Positions 2,994-23,575 of a stretch of DNA of 37,067 nucleotides are shown here, in pieces (within the stretch, counting starts at the first letter, position 1; each line of letters starts with the position of its first letter). The stretch is from contig JAURHO010000003.1 in the NCBI GenBank assembly GCA_030833265.1, forward strand, positions 1-37,067, in the 5' to 3' direction. The position numbers and the translations under genes are program-made. Below the pieces are notes generated by a model, which did no database searches, was not told the origin of the DNA, and saw only the letters and a list, made by a program, of their open reading frames with translations. This DNA is from Crocinitomicaceae bacterium (lineage in GTDB: Bacteria > Bacteroidota > Bacteroidia > Flavobacteriales_D > Crocinitomicaceae).

Positions 2994-4205
2994 TTAAGCG
3001 CGCGTTGTCTCGTCTTTCCTTAGCAAGAAACGCACAGGGAAAAACGTAAATAAAAACGACAACATGCTGGCAGCTAGGATGATGTTGATGAAATCTGTTA
3101 GCTTAAAAATAATTGGAAAGGGCACATTGGCACCGGGCACTATTAACCAGCCAAACACTTGTTGTGCGCCACAAACTATCAAACCCAACACTAAGCCAAT
3201 AAACACGCCTAAAAAAGACAACATTAAACCCTCGAAGAAAAAAACCTGAAAACGTTGTGTTTTGTTTAAGCCTATTGATTTGAGCACGAGAATATTTTGC
3301 TGTTTCTCGTGAATCAACATGGTAAGACTTGCGACCAAATTAAAAGAGGCGAGTACAAAGACGAACAAAAGCATGACAAAAACAATAAGGCGCTCTGATT
3401 GGCTGGTCTTGAAAATCAGTTCGTTTTTCTCATAAATCGTTTGAACCAAAAAATCAGGGCCCAACAAAGCCTGTATTTCATTTTTAACCAACTCTAGTTT
3501 CGAATTATCCTTCACATAGACCAATAAATGCGAACAAGAACCCTGAAGATTAAGTAGGTCCGCGGCTAAATTGTAATCCCACAATAGTGCTGAACCATTT
3601 AACTCTTGATTGTAATTAATCGCCCCTTCTACAAAGATCTGTTGTAAATGAAATGGTGTTTTACCAAGGCGCATTTTTGCATTGCGCTTGGGCGCATAAA
3701 GCTGAATGTTGTTTTGCTCAGAGCCAAGGCCTAAATTCAATTTTGAATAGAGGTCTGCTCCTAGAAATGCAAATCCGGGTTGCTCAAGTGCTTTAACACC
3801 AACCCGATTGATCAGGTGTCTTGAGACCTGAGCCTTTTTTAAAAACACTTGATCAACAGCATGCATATTGGCATTGATCCAGCGTTGGTTTTTTCTTAGC
3901 ACGACCAACTCTTCGATTTCCTTGCCGACAGCAGTGATTTTAGGAATCTTTAAAAGCGCTTCAGTATTAACTTCGCGAAGAAAAAAACTTTTTCTGGCGC
4001 TGTGAGAGATAGTAATCGGGGGATCAAATGAAGTATACAGCTTAGAGATCATTCCTTCTATCCCGTTGAAGGCAGAAAGTAAAATGACCATTGCAGCTGT
4101 ACAAATAGCTATGCCAACTACAGATATTCTTGAAATAAGACTGACAATCGAGCGCTTGGAACGATTAAAAAGGTAGCGTTTTGCTATGTAAAAAGAAGTG
4201 CGAAT
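2994..4205 (-). CDS. ABC transporter permease, LolC/LolE/MacB (FtsX domain) family; apparent ATT start
   Basis: ORF-track start (4091) is N-truncated: in-frame translation upstream reads [ATT]RTSFYIAKRYLFNRSKRSIVSLISRISVVGIAICTAA-MVILLSAFNGIEGM, the expected family N-terminus, beginning one codon after the RbfA stop. C-terminal FtsX-like transmembrane segments present. Confidence 0.85.
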   Translation of the reverse strand: MRTSFYIAKRYLFNRSKRSIVSLISRISVVGIAICTAAMVILLSAFNGIEGMISKLYTSFDPPITISHSARKSFFLREVNTEALLKIPKITAVGKEIEELVVLRKNQRWINANMHAVDQVFLKKAQVSRHLINRVGVKALEQPGFAFLGADLYSKLNLGLGSEQNNIQLYAPKRNAKMRLGKTPFHLQQIFVEGAINYNQELNGSALLWDYNLAADLLNLQGSCSHLLVYVKDNSKLELVKNEIQALLGPDFLVQTIYEKNELIFKTSQSERLIVFVMLLFVFVLASFNLVASLTMLIHEKQQNILVLKSIGLNKTQRFQVFFFEGLMLSFLGVFIGLVLGLIVCGAQQVFGWLIVPGANVPFPIIFKLTDFINIILAASMLSFLFTFFPVRFLLRKDETTRA

Positions 4206-9426: not shown

Positions 9427-11298
9427 TTAACGCCCTAGGTGGATCAAAAGCACTGATATATCACTCGGGGAAACGCCTGAAACGCGAGAAGCCTGCCCAA
9501 TGGTTGCGGGCTGAATTTTAGATAATTTTTCTTTTGCTTCTATACTTAGGCTTTTGATTTGTCTGAAATCTAATTCTTGGGGTATTTTCAAATCTTCTAA
9601 ACGAAGCAGTTTTTGAGCTTGTTCTTCTTCGCGCTCGATGTACCCTTCGTATTTCAAAAGTATTTCAGCTTGTTCAACAGCTAATGGGTCGTTGGCTTTT
9701 ACAGACTCAACTGTGGTTCTAATTTGTTCACTAACCCCAACTAAATCATCAAGGGAAATGTGTGGTCGGGTAATTAAAGAAGATGCTTTGACTTGCTGGG
9801 TAATTGGTGCAGACTCTTTTTGCGCTAGCATTTCGTTAGCCTCAGCTGGCGTAACACCAATCTCTCTTAGCTTCGATTTAAGCAGCGTGGTTTGCTTCTT
9901 TTTGTTTTCAACTCGCGCTAAATCTTCATCGTTAGCCAAACCTATCTGATGACCAAGCGGTGTTAAGCGTTCATCTGCATTATCTTGTCTTAATAATATT
10001 CTAAACTCTGCGCGGCTCGTAAACATTCTATATGGCTCATTCGTGCCTTTGGTAATGAGGTCATCTATTAAAACCCCAATATAAGCTTCGCTTCGGGACA
10101 AAATAAACGCGGGCTTTTCATGGGCATTTTGATGCGCATTGATGCCAGCCATTAAACCTTGGCAAGCTGCCTCTTCATAGCCAGTGGTTCCGTTGATCTG
10201 ACCAGCAAAGAACAAGTTCCTAATTAGCTTGGTTTCGAGTGTGTGGCTTAATTGTGTAGGTGGAAAATAATCGTATTCTATGGCGTATCCAGGCCTAAAC
10301 ATTTTGGCACTCTCAAAACCAGGAATGCTTTTTAGGGCTATATCTTGAACATCTTCAGGAAGCGAAGTTGAAAATCCATTTACATAAATTTCTACGGTAT
10401 TCCAACCCTCTGGTTCTACAAATATCTGATGGCGCTCTCTGTCGGCGAACCTTGATATTTTATCTTCAATACTCGGACAGTATCTTGGCCCAGAACTTTT
10501 AATTGCCCCATTAAACATAGGCGACCTATCAAAACCAGTTCTCAATAGATCATGCGTTCTTTCATTGGTATAGGTGATGTGGCAAGGGAGCTGTGTACTA
10601 AGTGCGGGTGTTGAACCGTAGCTAAACTTTGATGGGTTTTCATCACCGTGCTGTACTTCCATTTTAGAATAGTCGAGGCTTCTTCCGTCTATTCTTGGCG
10701 GAGTCCCTGTTTTCATTCTTCCAGCCACAAAACCAAGTTCAACCAACGATTCGGTTAACCCAATAGCAGCTTTTTCACCCGCTCTTCCTCCTCCATATTG
10801 TTTTTCGCCAAGATGGATAAGGCCGTTTAAGAAAGTGCCGTTTGTCAGAACAACAGTGGTTCCATAGACTTTTGTGCCCATGGCAAGTTGTACACCAACC
10901 ACTTTGTCTCCTTCCGTAATGACTCCAACACACATGTCTTGCCAGAAATCAACATTGGGGTTTTGCTCGAGTAAATAACGCCACTCCAAAGAAAACATAA
11001 CCCTGTCGTTTTGCGTTCTTGGAGACCACATAGCTGGGCCTTTAGATCTGTTTAGCATTCTAAATTGAATGGCGCTTTTGTCACTAACAATTCCAGAACC
11101 ACCACCAAGTGCATCAATTTCTCGAATGATTTGACCTTTTGCAACACCTCCCATTGCGGGGTTACAGCTCATTTGAGCAATAGTGTTCATGTTCATGGTG
11201 ATCAACAACACCTTGCTTCCCATCTTGGCGGCGGCATTTGCTGCCTCACATCCGGCATGGCCGGCTCCAACCACAATTACATCGTATTTACCTAACAT
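9427..11298 (-). CDS. mnmG: tRNA uridine-5-carboxymethylaminomethyl(34) synthesis enzyme MnmG (GidA)
   Basis: 623 aa; VIVVGAGHAGCEAANAAAKMG, CNPAMGGVAKGQIIREIDALGG, FFAGQINGTTGYEEAACQGLMAGINA. Confidence 0.98.
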   Translation of the reverse strand: MLGKYDVIVVGAGHAGCEAANAAAKMGSKVLLITMNMNTIAQMSCNPAMGGVAKGQIIREIDALGGGSGIVSDKSAIQFRMLNRSKGPAMWSPRTQNDRVMFSLEWRYLLEQNPNVDFWQDMCVGVITEGDKVVGVQLAMGTKVYGTTVVLTNGTFLNGLIHLGEKQYGGGRAGEKAAIGLTESLVELGFVAGRMKTGTPPRIDGRSLDYSKMEVQHGDENPSKFSYGSTPALSTQLPCHITYTNERTHDLLRTGFDRSPMFNGAIKSSGPRYCPSIEDKISRFADRERHQIFVEPEGWNTVEIYVNGFSTSLPEDVQDIALKSIPGFESAKMFRPGYAIEYDYFPPTQLSHTLETKLIRNLFFAGQINGTTGYEEAACQGLMAGINAHQNAHEKPAFILSRSEAYIGVLIDDLITKGTNEPYRMFTSRAEFRILLRQDNADERLTPLGHQIGLANDEDLARVENKKKQTTLLKSKLREIGVTPAEANEMLAQKESAPITQQVKASSLITRPHISLDDLVGVSEQIRTTVESVKANDPLAVEQAEILLKYEGYIEREEEQAQKLLRLEDLKIPQELDFRQIKSLSIEAKEKLSKIQPATIGQASRVSGVSPSDISVLLIHLGR

Positions 11299-11307
11299 AT
11301 AGAAGAG

Positions 11308-11323
11308 TGTTTCACGTGAAACA
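11308..11323. promoter_or_regulatory. parS: parS centromere site 1 (ParB binding site)
   Basis: TGTTTCACGTGAAACA, perfect 16-bp palindrome identical to the well-known bacterial parS consensus; about 10 bp upstream of the mnmG ATG. Confidence 0.9.
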
Positions 11324-11336
11324 ACAGCTTATTATT

Positions 11337-11768
11337 TCATTTTGTTTCACGTGAAACAAAAAAATTTAAATACTCATTTTCTTTCTTACGCATCAAAGCT
11401 TCATCACTAGGTGATTTATCTTTATAGCCACAAAGGTGCAGGAGACCGTGAAAAATAACGCGAAATAATTCTTCCTCAAAAGAAACGCTTAAAGACTCGG
11501 CGTTGTCCTTGACTCTATCTAATGATATCATGATGTCGCCAGACACAGAAGGAAATACCGAATAATCAAAAGTGATTACATCAGTGTAGTAATCATGATT
11601 TAAATACTGTTTATTGACTTCCAATAAGTATTCGTCATCTGTGAAAACAACACTAATATCCTTAAGGATTTTACCTTCTTTAATTGCTAAACTCTTGAGA
11701 TTTTGTTTGAGTATTGTTTTCGAAATGAAACCCGGGATTTTAACCCCAAGATTGATAATTTGTATCAT
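11337..11768 (-). CDS. ybeY: Endoribonuclease / rRNA maturation factor YbeY
   Basis: 143 aa; DVITFDYS...SGDIMISLDRVKDNAESLSVSFEEELFRVIFHGLLHLCGYKDKSPSDEALMRKKENEYL. Confidence 0.95.
   Translation of the reverse strand: MIQIINLGVKIPGFISKTILKQNLKSLAIKEGKILKDISVVFTDDEYLLEVNKQYLNHDYYTDVITFDYSVFPSVSGDIMISLDRVKDNAESLSVSFEEELFRVIFHGLLHLCGYKDKSPSDEALMRKKENEYLNFFVSRETK
11343..11358. promoter_or_regulatory. parS: parS centromere site 2 (ParB binding site), inside ybeY 3' end
   Basis: TGTTTCACGTGAAACA, embedded in the 22-bp perfect palindrome TTTTGTTTCACGTGAAACAAAA (11340-11361); 35 bp centre-to-centre from site 1. Confidence 0.9.
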
Positions 11769-12178
11769 TTCTGAAAATAAAGATTAACGGTGTTTCCTGG
11801 AGTAACAAACTCAACTTCATCCGCTAGGTTTTTCATTAAGAAAACACCTCGGCCGCTTTCTTTAAAAATATTCTCTGGTGCAGTAGGGTCAGGCAAAGCG
11901 TCAAACTCGAAACCATTCCCTTGGTCTTTAACCTGGATACAAAATAATTCAGGGTCATTTAAGACACTTATTGTAACGTTTAAGTCAGGATTATTTTTGT
12001 TGCCGTGAGAAATTGCATTATTTACTGCTTCAGATACAGCAATTAAAACATTTCCGAAAGCTTCATCATTGACACCTAGGTCTTGACAAACTGTACCAAC
12101 CAACTTCTCAACATCTATAAGAGACTGATAATCAGATGGTAAAACTAATTCTGTAACAATATTTAATCCTTCTTTCAT
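11765..12178 (-). CDS. ATP-binding protein, anti-sigma regulatory factor (RsbW-like HATPase) family
   Basis: 137 aa; N box EAVNNAISHGNKNN, G box VKDQGNGFEFD and GRGVFLMKNLADEVEF. Overlaps ybeY by 4 nt. Confidence 0.9.
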   Translation of the reverse strand: MKEGLNIVTELVLPSDYQSLIDVEKLVGTVCQDLGVNDEAFGNVLIAVSEAVNNAISHGNKNNPDLNVTISVLNDPELFCIQVKDQGNGFEFDALPDPTAPENIFKESGRGVFLMKNLADEVEFVTPGNTVNLYFQK

Positions 12179-12195: not shown

Positions 12196-15100
12196 TTACA
12201 ATTGAAGATATTGGTCTGCCCGTTGTTTATAATAGGGCTGTAGCGCAGGGTCAAAACCCCTCAATAACTCAAGATCATTCCATTTTGACCTTTTATACTC
12301 ATCAAATCGAATTTGGTTACCTTTTTCTACATCTTTTCCGCTCTGAGATTCGCGTTTTTCTTCAAAACCTCTTTGCATCATTGCTTTCTCGCTTTCTAAT
12401 AAGCGCGTCATGATTTCTTTTTGCCTTTGAATTGTTTGTTGATCAACCCTTTTCAGAAGCAGTTCTTTCTCTTGTTCTTCTAATTCTTTAATGAGAGGAT
12501 TGAGTTGGTTACCTAAACCTTTGCCCTCTTTATTCATCTCTTGGCGCAATTGTTCTAAATGCTGTCTGATCGCTGTTTGCTCCGCAGCCATCTTGGCTAA
12601 TTCCTTACTTCCTAAACCAAGCATTCCCTGACCTGGTTTACCATCTTTTCCTGGCATACTTCCTGGTTGTTGGCCAGGTTCTTTACCACCCGGCTGCGAA
12701 CCTTTTTGCATTTGTTCCAGTTGCTTTTTTAGCATTTCCTTCATGTCGCCAGGAGACATCGATTGTCCGGATTTTGGTCTTCCTTTTCCAGGATTATCAC
12801 AACTCCCACTTCCATCCATTTCACCACTCATTTGCTGCTGCATAGATTGCAACGCTTCGTTGAGTAATAAAGCAAGATTGTTATAAGAAGTCATGGTGAG
12901 CTGCTGATGTTTTTCGATTTCCTTTTTCTGATGATCATCAATAGCTTCAATGGTCAAGTTTTGATGCAGCGCTATTGCATTCAATTCCGCATCAATGAAA
13001 GTGGCAATTTTAGGCTGGCGTTTAGCCAATGCTAATAAACTGTCCTTAATAATTTTGGTGTCATCGATGATGCGCTGCTGCCTGCGACCTAGTTTTCTAT
13101 AAACTGGATCTTTTGTGCTTATTTTCAAAAATCTTTTTTGAACGTATTCTTGATCGAAACTCAGTGTTAGTAAGCCTTCAAGAATCGCTCTGAGAGCATC
13201 CATATCTTCTTCTTGTTGCTTTTTATTAGCCTGTTGCTGTTTGGAATTTAATTGTGAAGCCATAGACTGCATACCTGCTGCAGCTTGTTTTTGATTTTCA
13301 CTCGCTTTTTTATTTTTTCCTTCTGATATTTCCTGGGTTGCTTCTTTTAAATCTTGCTCAACCTGTTGCTGTAAGCTTTCCATTATATCCAGATCTAAAG
13401 GTCTCTCTAGCGCTTTATTTAACTCATTGAGTTCTTTCAAATCTTGTTTGACCCCATCAAATTTCTTATTGAGTTCTTCTTGCTTTTTAAGTAAATCTTC
13501 TTTGCTTAATTCGTTGTTTTTCTCCTCTAGTTCTTTTTGTTCTTGAGCTAATGATTCTAATTGTTTTTCAAGGTCGTCGATGCGTTCATTGACTTGCATT
13601 TTCTTAAGCATTTCCAGACTTCTATCGAGCTGTTTTTTCATGTCTTCGCTCGACTGATTGAGCTCATCTAACTTCTCTTTAACATCCTCTTTATTTTGTT
13701 CACTGAGTAGTTTTTCTAACTCATCAAGTAATTTTTTAAGCTCATCATCCATGACTTCTTGAAGTAATTTTTCAAGTAAATCTTGTTTTTCTAATAATTC
13801 TTGGTCAAGAGGAGAGAGTTGATTTTTTTGTTCTGTACTTTGCTCCATTTGATCAAGTGTCTCTTTTAACTGATTTTGAAGCTGTTCTTGTTGTTGCTTG
13901 AGTTCCTGGACTTTATTTAACTTGTTCCAGTTTGTATTCTTGTTTTGCAGCGACTCTTTTTTCAATTGCTGGACATCTTTTTGAAACGCTTGACTTTTCT
14001 TTAAAATATCCTGAAGATCATCTATTTGTTTGGTTTGCTCTTCTTGACGTTTTTCATTTAATTCTTCCAAATTCGGTAACTCATAAGTACCAATTTGACT
14101 TCTTGTAGACTTACTTCCATTTACACCATCATTATCAGAAACAATGAAATAATATTTGATTACATCTTGAAGTTGAATCTTTTCTCTTTTGAAATCTACA
14201 GCAAAATCAAAATTCTGTGCCGTTCCTTTTACATTTTGAACAGCCATTTTTTCAGTTCGTTTTTGTCCGTTTGCACTTTCAATTGTATAAACAAATTGTA
14301 AGTTATTTAAACCGTAATCATCTCTTACTGAACCAGAAAAATATTTTCTTCCTTCATAAACAGAATCTTGTTGCTCAGAAACTTCAATTAACGGGTAGGC
14401 ATCTTTAATTACCGTAATTCTTGAATGCGTTGTATCTCTTTTTAGCGTTTGATTATTTGTAAGGATAAAAGATACTTTTACATTACTCAGTAATCTTTTA
14501 TTGAATGAACAAATGGCTCCTTTAAACTTTTCAAGCTGTCCATTCCAGGAAACAGTTACAGACTTCGTATTCTTTGCTTTTAATTGCCATTGAATTTGCG
14601 TTCCTTCTGGAACATTTAAATCACCAACATTTTGAAAGGTTTGTGGCGCTTTATTGAGATACTTTGGATAGGTACATATGGCATTTAATATGCCAATGAC
14701 TGATTTTTTAGTTACTCTAATAAGTTGTTTTTGACTATCAAATTCATTGGTACTGACTTGATAGGTTAGGTCTGTATTCAACTTTTGAAGCCGAGCTGAA
14801 AATTTATTTTTCTTGATTTGTTTCATTAAGAATTTACCCTGATCAGAAACTAAATAAAGCTGCTTAGGTAATTCATTAAAACCTACATTGGGCTTTACTT
14901 TGACTTCTACCAAGTAATCTTCACCTTCCTCAATTGTTTTCTTAGTGTTTAAAAATTCAAAAAGAAATGGATTGGGTTTTTCAAATACTTGATTATAAAG
15001 CACAACCCGCTGACTTCCTTGTAGAATCAACTGTGGTAAAAACAAACCGATGCAAATAAATACGACCAGTAAGGGTAATAAATACTTGAGATACTTGCGA

Positions 15101-15561
15101 TGATCTTGATATTGAAGAGCAGACTGAAAAGGAATAATACTTAATTGCTCAGATCTTTGAATAATACTTGCTTGTAATAGCTCTATATTGCCATCTTGAG
15201 TTGTTAAACTTTGATGTAATTGCAATGTATTTTTCAGTTTATCTGCCACATTTGGAAAAAACTGACCAATAATTTCTGCGGCCTGTAAATGATTGATTTT
15301 TTGGCCTAAAGAAAATAATTTGCTCAGGGGCTGAATGATGAGTCTGAAAAATAAATAAGCGTGGAACAGTATAAAACTGAAAAAAAAGAAAGCTCTGACT
15401 ACGGTTGAGAAACGTCCAAAAAACTCTAGTGATGACGTCAGTAAAAAAGAACCTATGAAAAGCGATATAAAAACTAAAATTCCCCTAAGCAACTGATACT
15501 TGTAGTACTTTCGTATAAAAGCATCTATTTGTTCAAGAAGAGACAGATAGTTCGAATTCAT
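12196..15561 (-). CDS. DUF4175-family large membrane-anchored coiled-coil protein
   Basis: 1121 aa; three N-terminal hydrophobic segments, a beta-rich region, long Q/K/E-rich coiled coil and a G/P/Q-rich linker (PGGKEPGQQPGSMPGKDGKPGQGMLGLGSKELAKM), recognised as the Bacteroidota DUF4175 architecture. Confidence 0.8.
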   Translation of the reverse strand: MNSNYLSLLEQIDAFIRKYYKYQLLRGILVFISLFIGSFLLTSSLEFFGRFSTVVRAFFFFSFILFHAYLFFRLIIQPLSKLFSLGQKINHLQAAEIIGQFFPNVADKLKNTLQLHQSLTTQDGNIELLQASIIQRSEQLSIIPFQSALQYQDHRKYLKYLLPLLVVFICIGLFLPQLILQGSQRVVLYNQVFEKPNPFLFEFLNTKKTIEEGEDYLVEVKVKPNVGFNELPKQLYLVSDQGKFLMKQIKKNKFSARLQKLNTDLTYQVSTNEFDSQKQLIRVTKKSVIGILNAICTYPKYLNKAPQTFQNVGDLNVPEGTQIQWQLKAKNTKSVTVSWNGQLEKFKGAICSFNKRLLSNVKVSFILTNNQTLKRDTTHSRITVIKDAYPLIEVSEQQDSVYEGRKYFSGSVRDDYGLNNLQFVYTIESANGQKRTEKMAVQNVKGTAQNFDFAVDFKREKIQLQDVIKYYFIVSDNDGVNGSKSTRSQIGTYELPNLEELNEKRQEEQTKQIDDLQDILKKSQAFQKDVQQLKKESLQNKNTNWNKLNKVQELKQQQEQLQNQLKETLDQMEQSTEQKNQLSPLDQELLEKQDLLEKLLQEVMDDELKKLLDELEKLLSEQNKEDVKEKLDELNQSSEDMKKQLDRSLEMLKKMQVNERIDDLEKQLESLAQEQKELEEKNNELSKEDLLKKQEELNKKFDGVKQDLKELNELNKALERPLDLDIMESLQQQVEQDLKEATQEISEGKNKKASENQKQAAAGMQSMASQLNSKQQQANKKQQEEDMDALRAILEGLLTLSFDQEYVQKRFLKISTKDPVYRKLGRRQQRIIDDTKIIKDSLLALAKRQPKIATFIDAELNAIALHQNLTIEAIDDHQKKEIEKHQQLTMTSYNNLALLLNEALQSMQQQMSGEMDGSGSCDNPGKGRPKSGQSMSPGDMKEMLKKQLEQMQKGSQPGGKEPGQQPGSMPGKDGKPGQGMLGLGSKELAKMAAEQTAIRQHLEQLRQEMNKEGKGLGNQLNPLIKELEEQEKELLLKRVDQQTIQRQKEIMTRLLESEKAMMQRGFEEKRESQSGKDVEKGNQIRFDEYKRSKWNDLELLRGFDPALQPYYKQRADQYLQL

Positions 15562-16107
15562 AGTATAAAGCTAATGTTTCAAAAGCGTTCAGCAAAATTA
15601 GCAGCTTAGCTCAGCTTTAAATTATATAATATTCTTTTTTATATAAATTTTTAAAGAATTTACTATAGTTATTAAGGCTGTTCATATGTGTATAAAAACA
15701 TTGGCTTTTATTTGTTTATCCGTTGAATGCACCTTTACCAACAATGCATGAACAAAAAATAATTACTAAATCATTGTAAATCATATAGATAAACAACTAA
15801 TTAACAAAACCACAATTCTTACCATTGTTTATAAATGAGCCTCAGTTTTACAAACAATAGGTGTTATAATCGGTGTATAAAGAAAGGATAACATCGCGTA
15901 AAAAATGATGTGTAATCCAATCCAATTTTGGTTTGTTAAAATTCATCGGATAACCAAAAAAGGTTATCACACTTTTTAAACAACTTGTAAACTGAATTTT
16001 GATAAAATGGGTTTATAAGTTCAACGTGTTTATTAGCTTCTAGACTCAATATAAATGGAGATGTTTACAAGTTTATCTTTATTCTAGCTAATTTTACCAA
16101 AAAAAAC
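15562..16107. other. Candidate replication origin (oriC) intergenic region
   Basis: 546 bp between divergent genes, ~26% GC by hand count over 15601-16080; DnaA-box-like TGTGTATAA (15687-15695, perfect TTATNCACA complement), TGTTTATAA (15826-15834), GGTGTATAA (15872-15880), GGTTTATAA (16010-16018), all in one orientation; near-pure A/T tract ~15619-15666; no ORF. Confidence 0.5.
15949..15968. repeat. Perfect inverted repeat GATAACC-AAAAAA-GGTTATC
   Basis: 7-bp arms with an A6 loop inside the candidate oriC region. Confidence 0.8.
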
Positions 16108-16533
16108 ATGATTCCAATAGGTTCTGATCACGCAGGTTTCGAAACAAAACAAGCAGTTATTCAACATCTTTTATCAAAAGGATATGAAGTTAAAGATTAC
16201 GGTTGTTATTCTGAAGAAAGCATAGATTATCCAGATTATGCACACCCGGTAGCCGAATATGTAGAAAGTAACCCAGGAACCCTTGGCATTTTATTATGTG
16301 GTTCAGGTAATGGAATCAACATGACGGCAAATAAACACCAAGCGATCAGAAGTGCACTTTGTTGGAAAAAGGAAATAGCAGAATTGGCTCGCCAACACAA
16401 TGATGCCAACATAATTGCACTACCAGCTCGTTTTATTTCGATTGAAGAAGCAATCGAAATGGTAGACTCTTTTCTAAATACTGAATTTGAAGGCGGTAGA
16501 CACGCCAAGCGAGTGGAAAAAATCGCTTGTTAA
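16108..16533 (+). CDS. rpiB: Ribose 5-phosphate isomerase B
   Basis: 141 aa; IPIGSDHAGFETKQAV, DYGCYSEESIDYPDYAHPVA, LLCGSGNGINMTANKHQAIRSALCW. Confidence 0.97.
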   Translation: MIPIGSDHAGFETKQAVIQHLLSKGYEVKDYGCYSEESIDYPDYAHPVAEYVESNPGTLGILLCGSGNGINMTANKHQAIRSALCWKKEIAELARQHNDANIIALPARFISIEEAIEMVDSFLNTEFEGGRHAKRVEKIAC

Positions 16534-22618: not shown

Positions 22619-23575
22619 ATGGAAATCACACCAGAACTCAAAGAGAAACTTTCCTTACTTCATGAAAAATATGCAGCTCTAGGAGAAGACTTCAATGCTT
22701 ATCTAGAGGGTTTGTTATACGCTGATGTTACCACTTATTGGGATTACATCCAACTGGATACCCTATTAAGCCTTCAAAAGCCAAAAACCTCTTTTCCAGA
22801 CGAAGTGGTGTTTATTATGTATCATCAAATCACGGAGCTTTATTTCAAATTAGCACTTCGAGAGTTTGAGGCCTTGGGTAAAATAAAAGCGCCATCAAAA
22901 ACACACTTCATTGATCGCGTAGGCCGAATCAACCGTTATTTTGATGCGCTAGTCAAGAGTTTTGAAATCATGATTGACGGCATGGACCGCGACGAGTTTT
23001 TAAAATTCAGAATGAGTCTTTTGCCTGCGTCGGGTTTTCAGTCGGCACAATACCGTGAGATCGAGATTTTCAGCACAGATTTTATCAACCTCGTTGCAAA
23101 AGATAAGCGCGACGAATTGCGTTCTGAAAGCACAATCGAAAAACTTTTTGAACACATTTACTGGAAGGCGGGCGCTACAGAAGTGGCAACGGGTAAAAAA
23201 ACACTTACTCTAATTCAGTTTGAAGAGAAATATAAAGATCAATTTATAGCACTCGGTGAAAAATGCCAAGACAAAAACCTATGGCAAGTTTACTTAAGAC
23301 TTTCTAAAGAAGATCAGCAAGACGAACTAGTTAAAAATGCGCTGCGACAAAACGACATTAATGTCAATATCAATTGGCCATTGGCACATTATAAATCGGC
23401 GGTTCGTTATTTAGCTCGAAAAGACCAAGATGTAGCCGCAACAGGCGGAACCAATTGGCAAAAATACCTGCCGCCACGTTTTCAAAAACGCATTTTTTAT
23501 CCAACGTTGTGGTCACAAGAAGAGCACCAAAATTGGGGAAAAGCATGGGTAGAAGACATGCTTCAAAAGGGCTAA
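22619..23575 (+). CDS. Tryptophan 2,3-dioxygenase family protein
   Basis: 318 aa; YADVTTYWDYIQLDTLLSLQKPKTSFPDEVVFIMYHQITELYFKL, RMSLLPASGFQSAQYREIEIFSTD. Confidence 0.93.
   Translation: MEITPELKEKLSLLHEKYAALGEDFNAYLEGLLYADVTTYWDYIQLDTLLSLQKPKTSFPDEVVFIMYHQITELYFKLALREFEALGKIKAPSKTHFIDRVGRINRYFDALVKSFEIMIDGMDRDEFLKFRMSLLPASGFQSAQYREIEIFSTDFINLVAKDKRDELRSESTIEKLFEHIYWKAGATEVATGKKTLTLIQFEEKYKDQFIALGEKCQDKNLWQVYLRLSKEDQQDELVKNALRQNDINVNINWPLAHYKSAVRYLARKDQDVAATGGTNWQKYLPPRFQKRIFYPTLWSQEEHQNWGKAWVEDMLQKG

Follow-up and report, generated by a model that had tools for sequence, protein, structure and literature searches.

A pair of putative parS sites at the ybeY–mnmG junction of a Crocinitomicaceae bacterium, and the location of parS-like sites around mnmG in other Bacteroidota

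The window, a 37,067-nt stretch from the draft genome of a Crocinitomicaceae bacterium (GenBank assembly GCA_030833265.1, contig JAURHO010000003.1, positions 1 to 37,067), includes an RsbW-like gene, ybeY, and mnmG in succession on the minus strand (Table 1), an order that is the same in the relatives inspected. Near the start of mnmG are two copies of the palindrome TGTTTCACGTGAAACA, both exact and 35 bp apart from start to start. Each matches the 16-bp parS consensus, TGTTNCACGTGAAACA, without a mismatch. The original prediction of two perfect parS sites with these coordinates and this spacing is thus borne out by the sequence, and the TIGR00136 and TIGR00043 matches agree with the identities it gave for the flanking genes. 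Its placement of the pair at the ybeY/mnmG junction is correct for copy 1, which is intergenic, and needs amending for copy 2, which is inside the ybeY coding sequence. The spacer between the two genes is 38 nt and holds copy 1 only. YbeY ends in ...NEYLNFFVSRETK (F-VSRET-K-stop), in which VSRET is copy 2 translated in frame. Rfam and tRNA scans of the window were empty.

Table 1. Positions of the paired palindromes and adjacent genes in the window.
Feature	Position	Strand	Remarks
parS copy 1, TGTTTCACGTGAAACA	11308..11323	.	ybeY–mnmG spacer, 9 nt upstream of mnmG ATG
parS copy 2, identical to copy 1	11343..11358	.	Within ybeY 3' end; in-frame reading VSRET
mnmG (gidA)	9427..11298	-	TIGR00136, 849 bits; the phylum's parS sites cluster around mnmG
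ybeY (rRNA maturation RNase)	11337..11768	-	TIGR00043, 102.6 bits; C-terminal tail written by parS copy 2
RsbW-like anti-sigma/ATPase gene	11765..12178	-	Directly upstream of ybeY; NF003144, 51 bits, below cut-off of 145

A search of the whole 1.99-Mb draft found no exact copies of TGTTTCACGTGAAACA other than this pair, against a chance expectation, from the base composition of the window, of about 0.0007 per genome of this size and 1.4e-5 per window. With up to two mismatches allowed, two exact and two weak matches were recovered, and three matches to a reversed-sequence control. Since the control gives as many weak matches, only the exact pair is considered signal, and the 2-mismatch sites (at position 3301 of the window and on contig C316) were dismissed. 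In keeping with the original prediction, the genome-wide scan puts both exact matches at the window locus, so that the sites are few and clustered, not scattered.

The position of the pair is conserved within the family. Exact pairs with a gap of 5–30 nt were found in 27 of 197 family genomes, all 27 at the ybeY–mnmG junction behind an rsbW-like gene. Thirty more family loci were fetched by a single exact copy, and all are at the same junction except one, where the site is just after mnmG on a contig that starts inside that gene. The two sets combined, a motif-selected collection in which a few of the thirty repeat the same genomes, have 56 of 57 loci at the ybeY–mnmG junction and one just after mnmG. 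A motif allowing T or C at one position per half occurs in 111 of 117 near-complete family genomes, at 1–3 copies each; the reversed control gave zero. Conservation in relatives had been suggested as a check on the original prediction, and, across the family, this junction is indeed where the pair is kept.

The copy at the end of ybeY reads VSRET in nearly all pair loci of the window's family, while in Flavobacteriaceae-type loci it is shifted by one base, giving MFHVEQ, MFHVEH, or FHVK. Because the two frames give different peptides from one retained DNA word, selection is argued to act on the DNA. Among relatives, the sequence between the copies varies freely and both palindromes are exact, although this set was picked by exact pairs.

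To avoid motif-based selection, 80 named loci were also picked by MnmG alone, 76 of them with enough flanking sequence. By record title, they are from Flavobacteriales, Cytophagales, Chitinophagales, Sphingobacteriales, and others. A site with at most two mismatches is present at 62 of the 76, either within 300 bp upstream or between the last 20 bp of mnmG and 200 bp beyond it. On the same loci the reversed motif gave none, and 20 scrambled palindromes a mean of 0.05. Of the 138 parS-like sites in these loci, 78 precede mnmG, 38 follow it closely, and 3 fall within it; a further 7 are at the end of a displaced ybeY, and the remaining 12 have other locations. That is, 126 of the 138 are at the ybeY end or upstream, in mnmG, or just after it, and sites flanking mnmG on both sides are common in Chryseobacterium and Flavobacteriaceae. 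A site is present at 53 of the 55 loci with ybeY adjoining mnmG and at 9 of the 21 without this adjacency. No parS-like site was seen near mnmG in the mnmG-only loci from Saprospiraceae/Lewinellaceae and a few other lineages. The Saprospiraceae/Lewinellaceae loci, for example L158, L164, L169, L174, L187, and L191, also have no detected ybeY near mnmG.

In a separate draw from the phylum, a site shortly before the conserved mnmG start was found in 57 of 298 genomes, the 57 coming from at least ten families (reversed control, zero). This count is a floor, since the pattern cannot pick up sites that are within ybeY, follow mnmG, or are spaced differently; a site was found anywhere in the genome in 222 of the same 298. 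A literature search that lacked the comparative parS survey of Livny et al. (2007) found no published statement of an mnmG address for parS, and the address is not claimed here as unreported.

Outside the window, contig C346 carries the genome's sole ParB/Noc-family gene to pass the curated cut-off (191 bits). Absence of parB from the genome would have counted against the original prediction, which passes on this point. It had also noted that no parB is in the window and that the centromere is therefore separated from its genes; for parB this is the case. All 117 near-complete genomes of the family have a ParB over the cut-off. The best-aligning solved structure for the protein encoded here is B. 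subtilis Spo0J, and its helix-turn-helix, KSRSHIANHLRLLKLP, has nearly the same recognition helix as that of Spo0J, KSRPHIANHLRLLTLP. In the alignment it has R at position 173 and G at position 201 (Caulobacter numbering, assigned from the conserved KSR, N178, and R204 landmarks). These two residues are reported to be absolutely conserved in the parS-preferring ParB, whereas Noc, with a preference for its own binding site, NBS, has Q and R in their place (PMC7383237). The GERRFRA and ENIQRE motifs are intact, and the letters of the CTP motif are present. In all six relatives inspected for it (G004, G069, G022, G052, G205, and G424), parA adjoins parB; the window's draft genome gave only a parA-like fragment of 102 residues at a contig end (C68:5-310). 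One of these relatives also has a second ParB-family gene over the cut-off (G424:C1:253918-254352, 126 bits, in an open frame of 602 aa), away from parAB and possibly part of an integrated element.

Complete chromosomes of relatives were used to compare the position of the sites with GC skew, sampled in 20-kb stretches. The sampled skew of G205 changes at about 0.98 Mb from negative to mostly positive, with a local cumulative minimum at 0.983 Mb; parS, at 1.025 Mb, is about 42 kb away. In G424 parS, at 4.291 Mb, is about 18 kb from the local cumulative minimum at 4.273 Mb. Two others are compatible at a coarser level. The gene-strand-corrected skew of G004 is mostly below zero between 0.65 and 2.735 Mb and above zero from 3.01 Mb, and mnmG, whose nearby sites have one mismatch each, is at 2.72 Mb, so that its distance to the switch is resolved only to about 0.3 Mb. 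G069 has a weak skew, with which parS at 4.35 Mb is compatible (switch at about 4.5–0.3 Mb), although this is no proof.

The distances to dnaA and parAB were surveyed in eleven Bacteroidota chromosomes, some with rounded lengths. In seven of the eleven (G069, G004, G424, G205, G095, G058, and G479), parAB is 0.85–2.26 Mb and dnaA 0.72–1.91 Mb from parS. The remaining four, members of one other genus, have parAB 0.37–0.58 Mb from parS and dnaA within 55 kb. Hi-C work on gut bacteria including two Bacteroidetes likewise reports no systematic coincidence between origin and dnaA (PMC10197239).

The original prediction had placed the window near the origin, in part because mnmG is classically origin-proximal. 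The premise cannot be assumed, because dnaA is 0.7–1.9 Mb from mnmG in the seven chromosomes above, yet the skew minimum does fall near mnmG-parS in G205 and G424, at 18–42 kb. The window's own genome is a draft in 364 contigs, 78% complete, so the position of its origin has to be taken from these relatives, by homology to which the window would be near it. Six DnaA-box-like words with at most one mismatch occur in the window, three of them at 15687–16244, close to the low in its cumulative skew at about 15–18 kb. The words are too few and too weak to call an origin there, and the low itself, being confounded by gene strand, was set aside as origin evidence.

Taken with the ParB found in the same genome, the sequence of the pair and its conserved position in relatives make it very probable that this is the chromosomal centromere (parS) of a standard ParABS system. 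In such systems ParB, loaded at parS, extends over adjacent DNA, is moved through the action of ParA and, in species possessing SMC, recruits it (PMC7333895). Here, the two palindromes would be the loading points for ParB dimers, which would act as CTP-dependent clamps and spread from there along the flanking DNA. ParA, supplied from another part of the chromosome, would then move the region coated in this way, making the newly copied origin regions the first to separate. Two things probably hold the address fixed, a need for the site to stay near the replication origin and the stability of the local gene order itself.

A different role at this position would be as operator sites for a regulator of mnmG, or of ybeY and mnmG together. 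Copy 1 is only 9 nt upstream of the mnmG start, sites are close to this start in many relatives, and in Pseudomonas aeruginosa ParB itself represses genes beside intergenic parS sites (PMC7022226), so that some regulation may ride along with a centromere. Against operators, sites also occur within both genes and shortly past the end of mnmG, the motif is the parS consensus in a genome encoding a ParB with parS-selecting residues, and there are only 0–3 copies per genome, with nearly all of those inspected at one locus. Operators in place of a centromere are accordingly judged very unlikely. Still less probable is that the motif is bound by Noc in nucleoid occlusion. Noc is a ParB paralogue that recognizes a similar 16-bp palindrome (PMC7383237), but the sole ParB/Noc-family protein over the cut-off has specificity residues of the ParB type, R173 and G201, not Q173 and R201, and the sites are few and clustered.

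Conservation at ybeY–mnmG might also be a by-product of coding sequence and gene order, with no selection on the site, as the order of these genes is itself conserved and one copy is in coding DNA. Against this, the palindromes are exact where the sequence between them differs freely (in the set picked by exact pairs), sites are strongly enriched in loci picked by mnmG alone, the ybeY-end site is read in two frames by lineage (VSRET vs. FHVE/FHVK), and sites persist at loci where ybeY has been displaced (L167 and L214). Together these leave hardly any room for a by-product.

The window's site is an ordinary parS. Less ordinary is that it keeps so constantly to mnmG, overlaps ybeY in two frames, and lies apart from parAB and dnaA. 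The Spo0J-Soj-parS system of B. subtilis has the same 16-bp palindrome, a ParB of the same class with a near-identical recognition helix, and few, clustered copies near the apparent origin. It differs from the arrangement in seven of the eleven Bacteroidota chromosomes, where parAB is 0.85–2.3 Mb and dnaA 0.7–1.9 Mb from parS, and from the locus described here, where one copy forms the tail of ybeY. The gut-bacteria study similarly placed origins by parS clusters together with GC skew; the portion of it consulted has no mention of an mnmG address or a ybeY overlap, and the window's family is outside its scope (PMC10197239).

On balance, it seems somewhat probable that in much of the Bacteroidota the centromere is anchored around mnmG, next to the true origin, with no constraint keeping dnaA and parAB from the opposite chromosome half. 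It would also be partly coding, dictating the C-terminal tail of YbeY in frames that differ by lineage. If so, parS around mnmG would be a simple sequence landmark for the origin region. It would serve a phylum in which dnaA and the skew minimum are often far apart and in which skew cannot be used to map draft genomes. The arrangement also raises the questions of why the centromere stays with ybeY–mnmG while the genes for its own proteins lie far away, and whether the parS-encoded tail of YbeY is merely tolerated or useful.

Several other features of the window may be mentioned. Upstream of the RsbW-like gene, at 12196–15561 on the minus strand, is an ORF of 1121 aa, in an AT-rich stretch (GC about 0.33), with no NCBIfam match and a sub-threshold match to Pfam DUF4175, followed by a very AT-rich divergent spacer of 546 bp (15562–16107). 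An ORF of 318 aa on the plus strand (22619–23575) has a match to tryptophan 2,3-dioxygenase (80 bits) that covers only about 110 residues. On the minus strand at 1417–2946, near genes for undecaprenyl diphosphate synthase and an FtsX-like permease, a protein of 509 aa with ATP synthase alpha/beta domains is encoded.
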